This document shows positions 11,945 to 16,330 of a stretch of 16,330 bases of DNA, piece after piece. Position numbers and translations under genes: made by a program. The notes below the pieces were generated by a model, which made no database searches, had not been told where the DNA came from, and worked only from the letters and a program-made list of their open reading frames with translations. The stretch spans positions 1 to 16,330 of the forward strand of contig WLOR01000021.1 of NCBI GenBank assembly GCA_009699165.1. The letters are read 5' to 3'. Every line of letters begins with the position of its first letter. Position 1 is the first letter of the stretch. Source of the stretch: Actinomycetota bacterium (GTDB lineage Bacteria; Actinomycetota; Actinomycetes; Nanopelagicales; Nanopelagicaceae).

Positions 11945-11962
11945 GTGAGATGTGCATCTCAC
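11945..11962. promoter_or_regulatory. 18-bp palindrome upstream of the ilvB leader promoter (candidate operator)
   Basis: GTGAGATG and CATCTCAC form perfect 8-bp arms around a two-base centre (TG). The element begins 13 bases after the ilvD stop and ends three bases before the -35 hexamer TTGACT. The position suits an activator or repressor site for the ilvBNC-serA promoter. No T-run follows, so it is not a standard terminator for ilvD. The cognate regulator is unknown; Lrp-, LysR- or GntR-type proteins are possible but cannot be distinguished here. Confidence 0.55.
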
Positions 11963-11965
11963 GCC

Positions 11966-11994
11966 TTGACTCATTTGAGAAGCTGTTGGAGAAT
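11966..11994 (+). promoter_or_regulatory. Promoter of the ilvB leader and ilvBNC-serA operon
   Basis: TTGACT (11966-11971) and GAGAAT (11989-11994) are separated by exactly 17 bp, a near-consensus sigma-70-type arrangement and the clearest -35 in the window. The -10 ends six bases before the ATG of the leader peptide, so transcription is predicted to start on that ATG. The downstream order of leader peptide, stem-loop and terminator supports this assignment. Confidence 0.72.
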
Positions 11995-12000
11995 ATGGCC

Positions 12001-12030
12001 ATGTTTACAACAGTTGTTGTGGTGATTTAA
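12001..12030 (+). CDS. ilvB attenuator leader peptide MFTTVVVVI
   Basis: This is a nine-codon open reading frame: Met-Phe-Thr-Thr, four consecutive valine codons (GTT GTT GTG GTG), isoleucine and TAA. Regulatory valine/isoleucine runs are the hallmark of branched-chain attenuators; the E. coli ilvBN leader and the C. glutamicum ilvBNC leader also carry valine runs. Ribosome speed through the valines would report Val-tRNA (and possibly Ile- and Thr-tRNA) supply to the terminator downstream. There is no Shine-Dalgarno. The ATG lies six bases after the -10 box, so the mRNA should begin with this codon. An in-frame ATG at 11995 would give MAMFTTVVVVI but falls at an unlikely position relative to the promoter. 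Confidence 0.8.
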   Translation: MFTTVVVVI

Positions 12031-12031
12031 A

Positions 12032-12062
12032 AGCGCGTGATCTAGCAATTCGATCGCGCGCT
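12032..12062 (+). promoter_or_regulatory. Leader stem-loop (pause or alternative hairpin) of the ilvB attenuator
   Basis: Positions 12032-12042 pair with 12052-12062 in an 11-bp stem with one G-U pair and a nine-base loop. It starts two bases after the leader-peptide stop, so a ribosome at the stop codon would cover its 5' arm, whereas one stalled on the early valine codons would leave it mostly free. It ends immediately before the terminator stem. It could be a pause hairpin or part of the switch; no strong pairing with the terminator 5' arm was found. Confidence 0.65.
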
Positions 12063-12088
12063 ACCCTCAGTTAATCTGAGGGTTTTTT
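12063..12088 (+). terminator. Intrinsic terminator (attenuator) upstream of ilvB
   Basis: ACCCTCAG (12063-12070) pairs with CTGAGGGT (12076-12083) in a perfect 8-bp stem with loop TTAAT, followed by a T-run to 12088. It lies between the valine-rich leader peptide and ilvB, so it is predicted to stop transcription of ilvBNC-serA when charged branched-chain tRNAs are plentiful. Confidence 0.88.
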
Positions 12089-12144
12089 CATTTACAAGGA
12101 TTGCAGATAAGAGAAATCGGATGAGATTGGAAAGGAGTAAGAAG

Positions 12145-13904
12145 ATGGCACACGTACCAACTGCCAACGGCACCGCAATGACTGGAGCTACTTCATTGGT
12201 GAAAAGCCTTGAAGCAGCCAACGTTGATGTGATGTTTGGTATTCCGGGCGGAGCAATTCTTCCTGCTTATGATCCGATATATGACTCAACGATTCGACAT
12301 ATTTTAGTTCGTCACGAACAAGGTGCTGGACACGCTGCAACTGGATATGCCCAAGTGACTGGCCGTGCAGGAGTTTGTATTGCAACTTCCGGACCTGGAG
12401 CGACAAATTTAGTCACACCACTTGCAGATGCCGCCATGGATTCAGTTGCTGTAGTTGCAATTACTGGACAAGTCCCATCAGTTGCAATTGGTACCGATGC
12501 TTTCCAAGAGGCTGATATTCGTGGAATAACCATGCCATTTACTAAACATAATTTTCTTGTGACCAACCCCAATGAAATTCCACGGGTAATCGCAGAGGCT
12601 TTTCACATAGCAACCTCTGGGCGTCCAGGCCCTGTGCTGGTTGATATTGCAAAAGATGCGCTCCAAATGCAGACAACATTTAACTGGCCTACGTCAATAA
12701 ATTTAGCGGGATATAAACCACAAATTCAACCAAATCAAAGTGCGATTAATGATGCAGCATCACTTATCGCTCAATCTGCAAAACCAGTCTTTTATGTTGG
12801 TGGCGGTGTCATTAAAGCCAATGCTTCACGTGAACTACTGGAGTTGGCACAGCTTCTTGGCGCACCTGTCGTAACAACACTTATGGCGCGCGGTGCCTTT
12901 CCTGATTCGCATCCATTACACATGGGAATGCCTGGAATGCACGGCACAGTTGCAGCAGTAACTGCGCTACAAAAGGCTGATTTACTTATTACTTTAGGTG
13001 CTCGCTTTGATGATCGAGTAACCGGCAAGCTCTCTAGCTTTGCCCAAAATGCCAAAGTGATTCATGCAGATATTGATCCAGCCGAAATCGGAAAAAACCG
13101 CTACGCAGATGTTGCAGTAATTGGTGATCTACGCGAAACAATTAAGGCTTTAATTCCTGCGCTATCAGCCGCACTATCTAAAGGCAGGGTTGACCTTTCC
13201 CCTTGGATGGAAAGTGTCAATAAACTCAAATCCACATATCCATTGGGGTATGACACTCCTGCAGACGGTGCGCTTTCTCCGCAGTTTGTCATCGAGCGAC
13301 TTGGCAAAATCTGCGGACCAGATACGATTTTTGCTGCAGGTGTTGGACAACATCAGATGTGGGCTTCTCAATTTATTAGTTATGAGAAGCCACGTACATG
13401 GCTCAACTCCGGCGGGGCAGGCACAATGGGGTACGCAGTTCCAGCTGCGATGGGTGCCCAAGTTGGTGCTCCAGATACAACAGTATGGGCGATTGATGGC
13501 GATGGTTGCTTCCAAATGACAAATCAGGAGCTTGTTACCTGTGCACTCAATAATATTCCGATTAAAGTTGCAATTATTAATAATGAAAGTCTGGGCATGG
13601 TTCGCCAATGGCAAACCCTGTTCTATGACAGCCGATATTCAAATACAAGCCTTGAATCTAAGCGCATTCCAAACTTTCCAATGTTGGCGCAGGCGATGGG
13701 ATGTGTTGGGCTCTCGTGCGATAGCCCCGCAGATGTCGATGCCACGATTGAAAAGGCAATGTCAATCAATGATCAACCGGTCGTGGTTGATTTTCGCGTT
13801 CATCGCGATGCGATGGTTTGGCCGATGGTGGCAGCTGGTACCTCAAATGATGAAATCATGATCGCTCGCGCTACTGCGCCCGACTGGGATTCACAGGAGC
13901 TCTA

Positions 13905-13905
<1 letters not shown>
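12145..13905 (+). CDS. ilvB: Acetolactate synthase large (catalytic) subunit
   Basis: This encodes the 586-residue thiamine-diphosphate enzyme that condenses pyruvate with pyruvate or 2-ketobutyrate, the first common step to valine and isoleucine. The catalytic glutamate is E58 in [16 protein letters not shown]. The central domain follows at about 195-330. The ThDP-binding motif runs from GDG at 452-454 to NN at 479-480, with the usual spacing. I chose ATG 12145 because GGAG lies seven bases upstream; the in-frame ATG at 12121 lacks a good ribosome-binding site and would place that Shine-Dalgarno inside the gene. The stop overlaps the ilvN start by one base (TAATG). Expression should depend on the promoter, leader peptide and terminator upstream. 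Confidence 0.97.

Positions 13906-16330
<2,425 letters not shown>

Follow-up and report, generated by a model that had tools for sequence, protein, structure and literature searches.

A predicted leaderless valine leader peptide followed by two abutting hairpins upstream of ilvBNC-serA in Nanopelagicales

Leaders of the Escherichia coli ivbL/trpL type are Shine-Dalgarno-led. An attenuator at the Corynebacterium glutamicum ilvBNC operon was reportedly described by Morbach in 2000. The account of this operon by Ryabchenko (2025, PMC11857589) describes a leader peptide, IlvL, of 15 residues, adjoining antiterminator and terminator hairpins that share the bases GCC, a proposed antiantiterminator, and a transcript start one nucleotide from the leader start codon. 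In Streptomyces lividans, ilvL (MRTRILVLGKRVG; PMC8079986) is reported as a leaderless BCAA leader of 13 residues with one Val codon upstream of ilvBHC, and the mean distance from the -10 element to the transcription start site is given there as 6.3 nt. The model published for Mycobacterium tuberculosis ilvB1NC (PMC13236596) has a BCAA uORF in a leader of approximately 166 nt before ilvB1, in which a ribosome at the stop codon masks a competing antiterminator and a stalled ribosome frees it. The Corynebacterium ilvB-II motif (PMC10272879), found once per genome upstream of ilvB, is described as a hairpin P1, a terminator P2 whose right side is proposed to pair with the P1 loop as the antiterminator, and a BCAA uORF of usually 15–17 codons that spans most of P1; a C. 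ulcerans reporter was high in minimal and low in rich medium. Candidate ilvB leaders are also listed in PMC1262725.

The window, the whole 16,330-nt stretch of DNA analyzed here (contig WLOR01000021.1), has the arrangement of the actinobacterial leaderless type: directly upstream of ilvB lie a BCAA-rich leader, a hairpin, and a terminator, and ilvB, ilvN, ilvC, and serA follow in this order (profile matches). The source organism belongs to the Nanopelagicales, a freshwater group also known as the acI lineage. The features of the locus are:

11946–11961, no strand assigned: palindrome TGAGATGTGCATCTCA, candidate operator, 4 nt upstream of the -35 hexamer; sole perfect match in the genome, zero or one mismatch in 94 of 118 order promoters
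11966–11971, forward strand: -35 hexamer TTGACT; of 118 promoters in the promoter-first scan, 116 have a -35 starting with TTGA and 117 a spacer of 17 or 18 bp
11989–11994, forward strand: -10 hexamer GAGAAT; GAGAAT in 85 of 116 leader records, otherwise GACAAT, GATAAT, GAAACT, and similar
12001–12030, forward strand: leader ORF MFTTVVVVI-stop, predicted to start at transcript base +1; Val codons 12013–12024, Ile 12025–12027, TAA 12028–12030
12031–12045, forward strand: relic of a longer frame, AAG CGC GTG ATC TAG (KRVI-stop)
12032–12062, forward strand: hairpin P1, 11 pairs, nine-base loop, from folding and covariation
12063–12083, forward strand: intrinsic terminator hairpin T, eight pairs, directly abutting P1, from folding and comparison
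12084–12088, forward strand: U tract of T (TTTTT), from sequence
12133–12137, forward strand: Shine-Dalgarno sequence AGGAG of ilvB, from sequence
12145–13905, forward strand: ilvB, acetolactate synthase large subunit, start codon ATG at 12145 (NF005860, 1045 bits, cut-off 881)
13905–14192, forward strand: ilvN, shortened to 95 aa (TIGR00119, 96.7 bits, cut-off 56.9, profile positions 3–80 of 158)
14204–15241, forward strand: ilvC, ketol-acid reductoisomerase (NF004017, 548.8 bits, cut-off 336)
15207–16328, forward strand: serA, start codon assumed, running past the window end (TIGR01327, 452.9 bits for the portion inside the window, cut-off 454)

The coordinates and profile scores of the four genes bear out the ilvBNC-serA operon proposed in a preliminary description of the sequence. 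A close named relative in ilvB, the isolate IMCC26103 (CP015604.1, 95% identity), carries the leader MQKKLALISSSVIVVVIR at the same promoter spacing. Four contigs titled Bifidobacterium breve (L148, L168, L172, L182) have ilvB genes 72–94% identical to that of the window, and their titles look wrong. The 95-aa IlvN matches the N-terminal half of the family profile. Complete genes from 24 loci of the genus encode 93–95 aa in 20 cases and 184 aa in the other four (L013, L025–L027), and the length is approximately 159–215 aa in most loci of other groups; the C-terminal half of IlvN seems to have been lost in the lineage of the window.

Comparison was made across 131 Nanopelagicales genomes (12 genera, one family), counts over which are not independent because the genomes are related. 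Upstream regions were obtained from 120, of which 119 were long enough; 11 genomes had no usable ilvB start (G006, G010, G011, G016, G020, G027, G112, G114, G124, G137, G150). G004 (contig too short) and G092 and G115 (no VV-type leader at the expected spacing) were left out, and G125, with leader MTSVVVIGERAL, stands outside the 116 leader records and is included in the promoter-first ORF scan. The 116 records were picked with a V/I pair, a spacing of 6 or 7 being preferred or required, and are partly circular for spacing and V/I core; the promoter-first scans ignore start codons and are free of that circularity, except that A2 and T6 of the -10 were required. Alignment A1 comprises 37 representatives of the 116 (similarity cut 0.93), and folding and gap tests used the 107 unique order leaders. 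For other groups of the class, 46 leaders were analyzed out of 76 inputs; strict criteria left 26 of the inputs with no leader, and four had no terminator. Of 80 named loci, 21 yielded no leader. The searched genome of the window itself comprises 1.31 Mb in 132 contigs.

The promoter (TTGACT, a 17-bp spacing, GAGAAT), the six bases ATGGCC before ATG 12001, the ORF MFTTVVVVI, the stem-loop, and the terminator before the ilvB Shine-Dalgarno sequence can all be read directly where the preliminary description placed them. The promoter by itself is at chance level (one found vs. 1.0 expected in such a region). The combination of TTGA, 17 or 18 bp, NANNNT, 6 or 7 nt, and a short ORF occurs once on both strands of the window, against a mean of 0.32 in 200 shuffled windows, and the same arrangement with four V/I/L in a row at 0.005 per shuffled window (200 shuffles). 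Promoters were called blind to start codons in 118 of 119 order regions, and in 116 of these 118 the first ATG or GTG follows the -10 by 6 nt (110) or 7 nt (six), compared with 360 of 5954 random positions (6%). In the two exceptions, either a weak alternative promoter was chosen (G092) or the leader lies 6 nt behind another hexamer (G126). The ORFs reached in this way are closed, at most 36 aa long, and contain a run of three V/I/L in 117 of 117, the G092 ORF not closing; such runs occur in 963 of 2968 random short ORFs drawn from these regions, some leaders being part of this background. The peptides of the 116 records have 8–30 residues, so the distance to the promoter is the constant. In the window, a second in-frame ATG at 11995, directly behind the -10 and absent from the preliminary description, would give MAMFTTVVVVI; an in-frame start codon within the six bases behind the -10 is present in only 10 of 116 leaders, and a start of this type is therefore not the conserved one. 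The predicted leaderless start of the leader ORF, as originally proposed, is thus well supported by the order-wide spacing. Its presentation as unusual is not supported, since leaderless initiation has already been described both at C. glutamicum ilvBNC (PMC11857589) and for IlvL of S. lividans (PMC8079986).

The leader ORF (ATG TTT ACA ACA GTT GTT GTG GTG ATT TAA) holds codons for the pathway product (VVVVI). The last three core codons are V, V, and I in 114, 109, and 112 of the 116 leaders, respectively, in which synonymous core codons vary (GTG/GTA/GTC/GTT, ATT/ATC) with GTG and ATT dominating, and V, I, and L make up 662 of 1477 residues after Met. The peptide looks to be translated and valine-directed, and the order-wide conservation of a BCAA-rich ORF agrees with the valine leader first described. 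A loss of the Val codons in close relatives, named there as a point that would tell against it, was found nowhere in the genus, where 65 of 65 analyzable records keep the V/I core. Only two of the 119 order regions (G092 and G115, genus g31) have no VV-type leader; on visual inspection, the leader place is occupied by an ORF, MLSRISVRLERAS, in which I, V, and L are dispersed, and hairpin and terminator are kept. Leader valines are encoded by GUG or GUA in 332 of 384 cases, as against 99 of 326 in eight genes of the window, where GUG is the rarest valine codon, and 359 of 1203 in 26 ilvB genes; the window leader has two GUU and two GUG. A closed genome of the same genus (G015) has 39 tRNAs, identified with the Rfam tRNA family, which replaced an uninformative tRNA-like pattern search. 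Its tRNA-Val anticodons are GAC (two) and UAC (two), with no CAC, which leaves tRNA-Val(UAC) as the expected reader of GUG and GUA; taken with the codon bias, this suggests that the leaders favor the codons of one isoacceptor.

Outside the genus of the window, the core is followed by a tail that runs into P1 (e.g., RERAI, EKRAI, GERAL, ERAR, RCA). Two genomes of the same genus (G026, G033) read ...VVIRKRAI-TAG where the window has ...VVI-TAA-AAG-CGC-GTG-ATC-TAG: a stop has replaced an arginine codon, and the former tail, including its own stop, persists in frame inside P1, a relic that the preliminary description lacks. In the 65 records of the genus, the peptide ends directly after the core in 36, after a single arginine in 26, and after serine in one, and two keep the long tail. 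We infer from this pattern that the nine-residue peptide is derived and that its tail was retained as RNA structure. Leaders of 8–10 residues at the same promoter spacing are found in other actinobacterial groups (L169, L184, L185, L194, L202). The peptide length first given is correct, and it probably reflects a late truncation.

Folding of 12001–12091 gives an MFE of -37.3 kcal/mol, compared with -18.5 (sd 3.1) for 200 shuffles (z -6.2). Across the 37 representatives, 92.0% of P1 and T cells are paired, a count that leans towards the P1 register of the window because this was named by hand; slid versions give 22–51%. Cells changed on both sides number 17 against a shuffled mean of 6.7, with none of 500 shuffles as high. 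Two other measures of covariation are weak: P1 and T pairs changed on both sides number five, a count reached by 48 of 500 shuffles, and further pair types number 14, reached by 58 of 500. RNAalifold applied to A1 returned a P1 register shifted by two columns, which was read as a product of the GCGCG repeat. The seven inner T pairs are formed in 37 of 37 representatives and are invariant except for U-A/U-G, and T thus has no covariation of its own. The near invariance of this inner stem, CCCUCAG/CUGAGGG (12064–12082 in the window), is more than a terminator should need. Folding and order-wide conservation together uphold the intrinsic terminator of the preliminary description.

The spacing of these elements is also constrained. 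P1 follows the last core codon at a distance of 4 or 5 nt in 110 of 116 leaders, and lies 0, 1, or 2 nt from T in 81, 32, and 3. A hairpin of at least six pairs within 0–1 nt of T is present in 104 of 107 leaders, against 698 of 2140 with the P1 region shuffled. In the 46 leaders of other class groups the gap is 0, 1, 2, or undefined in 34, 7, 4, and 1, and in the Streptomyces loci the peptide MRTRILVLGKRVG lies 7 nt behind the -10 and a hairpin directly before T. The leading edge of the ribosome was assumed to lie 12 nt beyond the first A-site base, a value known from toeprinting. With this edge, the covered fraction of the P1 5' arm (medians, n = 107) is 0 with the ribosome on the first core codon, 0.25 one codon before the last, 0.55 on the last core codon, and 1.0 at the stop, and P1 is the feature that tracks ribosome position in this computed coverage.

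A competing antiterminator was sought as upstream pairing of the T 5' arm before the 3' arm exists, with the ribosome either on the first regulatory codon or at the stop; the folds are nested and use sequence only, placing pseudoknots and proteins outside the test. Values for the stalled and stop states of the E. coli controls are 0.90/0.00 (thrL), 0.77/0.01 (ilvL), 0.62/0.00 (trpL), 0.67/0.01 (leuL), 0.56/0.02 (ivbL), and 0.69/0.68 (hisL), so that the test separates stalled from finished states in five of six attenuators. Nested folds of the window leader give 0.00 at the first Val codon and 0.11 at the stop, with no antiterminator that sequesters T and hence no competing, ribosome-position-dependent element of the trpL type. 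In the same folds, 91 of the 107 order leaders are likewise without one (median over the set 0.08/0.15). A stalled-minus-stop difference above 0.3 is seen in the other 16, namely 10 from the genus of the window (g1), five from g26, and one from g35, and in one of the 46 analyzed leaders of other class groups. The T 5' arm pairs with its upstream leader worse than with shuffled leaders in 107 of 107 (mean -4.3 vs. -6.9 kcal/mol), whereas all six E. coli leaders pair better than the shuffled mean (0 to 50 of 200 shuffles as strong). For the T 3' arm, upstream pairing is stronger than in shuffled leaders in only 27 of 107. The equilibrium probability of T (medians 0.95–0.97 whatever the ribosome position) was dropped as a test because thrL, hisL, trpL, and leuL give at least 0.93 in every state.

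The locus shares with C. glutamicum ilvBNC the ilvB operon, the BCAA leader, the adjoining hairpins, and, if the predicted 5' end is right, a transcript start beside the leader start codon (PMC11857589); however, P1 and T of the window share no base, and no sequestering pairing was found in nested folds. It resembles S. lividans ilvL in its BCAA leader, here predicted to be leaderless, but four consecutive Val codons stand in the window peptide, which stops short of P1. The BCAA uORF and the proposed logic of masking at the stop and release by a stall are common to M. tuberculosis ilvB1NC, which differs in its leader of approximately 166 nt and in the competing antiterminator of the published model. 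The ilvB-II layout is approached by P1, a terminator, and a uORF in single copy upstream of ilvB, yet the window ORF ends at 12030 and P1 starts at 12032, and the pairing proposed there with the P1 loop is not seen, the best pairing of the T 3' arm with the window leader being -2.4 kcal/mol. Regulatory codons, an intrinsic terminator, and, presumably, ribosome position as the signal are shared with the E. coli ivbL/trpL type, in which, unlike here, the folding test detects a competing antiterminator. The type of switch is thus known from relatives, and what seems to differ is the apparent absence of the usual competing antiterminator.

We consider it probable that the locus is a ribosome-mediated attenuator of ilvB, in which a stall on a leaderless valine peptide frees P1 to hinder T by abutment. 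Comparison supports the conservation of the ORF, its codons, the promoter spacing, P1, T, their abutment, and the codon–P1 register; the 5' end, translation, valine response, and polarity are predictions. Transcription would start at or next to A12001, so that the 5'-terminal AUG would be engaged directly by a 70S ribosome. With charged tRNA-Val plentiful, the ribosome would reach UAA 12028 and its leading edge would cover most of the P1 5' arm, so that P1 would be blocked, T would form alone, and RNA polymerase would halt before ilvB. With tRNA-Val uncharged, the ribosome would stall on the valine codons at 12013–12024, leaving P1 exposed to fold; with no spacer to T, the folded P1 would hinder completion of the T base and ilvBNC-serA would be transcribed. 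That P1 weakens T by abutment is something we infer, and it is the least certain part of the scheme because the folds showed no antiterminator acting by base pairing. Should valine shortage induce the operon, as it does in the relatives studied, P1 must oppose T.

The region upstream of the promoter points to further control. The palindrome TGAGATNNNNATCTCA lies mostly 4 nt before the -35 in order promoters, and in 4 of 19 other genomes of the class (G041, G052, G054, G056) versions with 2–3 mismatches precede TTGAC by 5–6 nt. With up to two mismatches, the genome of the window has 97 matches against 30 for a reversed control pattern, and weaker sites may therefore exist. In a draw of 41 genomes, exactly one perfect copy is present in 26 and none in 15, and 24 of the 26 copies are at ilvB by coordinates. 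A DNA-binding regulator likely acts beside the leader. NdgR/LtbR was rejected as the binder, its published motif KTYCRSMWYSYGRRM not resembling TGAGATNNNNATCTCA.

Several other explanations can be weighed against hindrance of T by a freed P1. It is unlikely that this is a classical attenuator whose antiterminator was missed by nested folding, as a pseudoknot, a weak extension of P1 between GGU of the Val codons and ACC of the T base after the manner of the C. glutamicum overlap model, or a structure made with protein help. Sequestration of the T 5' arm in 16 of 107 order leaders is in line with such an element, and the C. glutamicum antiterminator hairpin also adjoins its terminator, with a three-base overlap and mutational support (PMC11857589); on the other side stand the poorer-than-shuffled upstream pairing of the T 5' arm in every order leader, opposite to the six E. 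coli leaders, and the position of the window GGU, which would be under the stalled ribosome. Control might instead be transcriptional and act through the upstream palindrome, the terminator being constitutive or weakly tuned. The order-wide conservation of TGAGATNNNNATCTCA and its restriction to at most one perfect copy in each of the 41 genomes fit this reading, as does the report that candidate regulatory codons of S. coelicolor ilvB were changed without effect (PMC1262725), but the conserved valine codons, their synonymous variation, and the fixed distance from codons to P1 would be left unexplained, and we regard it as rather improbable.

The start and the direction of the switch can be read differently as well. 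The leader ORF would be Shine-Dalgarno-initiated on a longer transcript if GGAGAAT were a ribosome-binding sequence and not the -10; in the window a GGAG overlapping the -10 does lie 9 nt before ATG 12001, and SD-like strings of 4–5 bases precede the leader start by 5–20 nt in 63 of 116 leaders. This is hardly probable, given that 53 of 116 leaders have no such string, that GACAAT, GATAAT, or GAAACT can replace GAGAAT, that 6–7 nt from -10 to start codon are held whatever the peptide length, and that for S. lividans a leaderless start is reported (PMC8079986) for MRTRILVLGKRVG, the peptide found in the Streptomyces loci. The polarity might also be the reverse, with P1 stacking on T and strengthening it, so that a stalled or absent ribosome leads to termination and translation to the stop leads to read-through. 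Abutting helices normally stack and stabilise each other, and T is predicted whatever the ribosome position. As ilvB would then be off under valine starvation, contrary to the C. ulcerans reporter and the M. tuberculosis model, we hold this to be very unlikely.

The search of the window with Rfam 15 gave no family above its gathering cut-off; the best overlap, Atu_C8 (22.7 bits), was discarded as far below the cut-off of 50. A covariance model of P1 and T has a single match in the genome at E up to 1, at the window leader. At E of at most 0.01 it matches 30 of 148 genomes of the class, including 11 that belong to the order; of the 19 outside the order (model R1), three were compared by coordinates (G043, G047, G049), with matches just before ilvB. 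A second, weak match elsewhere is present in G049, G062, and G068 (E 0.001–0.008). No report of a leader peptide of Nanopelagicales or Planktophila was found in the literature searched, mostly outside subscription journals. Nor did that literature, including the accessible part of PMC1262725, yield an earlier statement that leaders of the class are without a sequestering antiterminator, although one may still be published.

Beyond the locus itself, we tentatively raise the possibility, doubtful as yet, that actinomycete ilvB leaders in general are attenuators without a sequestering antiterminator, in which a position-dependent hairpin ending where T starts blocks closure of the T base in the RNA exit channel. 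The Nanopelagicales leader, nine codons long, leaderless, and favoring tRNA-Val(UAC) codons, would be a minimal form. If this is true, ribosome-controlled termination in a large class could run on two abutting hairpins and a leaderless peptide of 8–9 codons, with no antiterminator sequence. It would also provide one explanation for the poor fit of actinobacterial ilvB leaders to the classical model, as in the ambivalent Streptomyces results and the overlap model of C. glutamicum.
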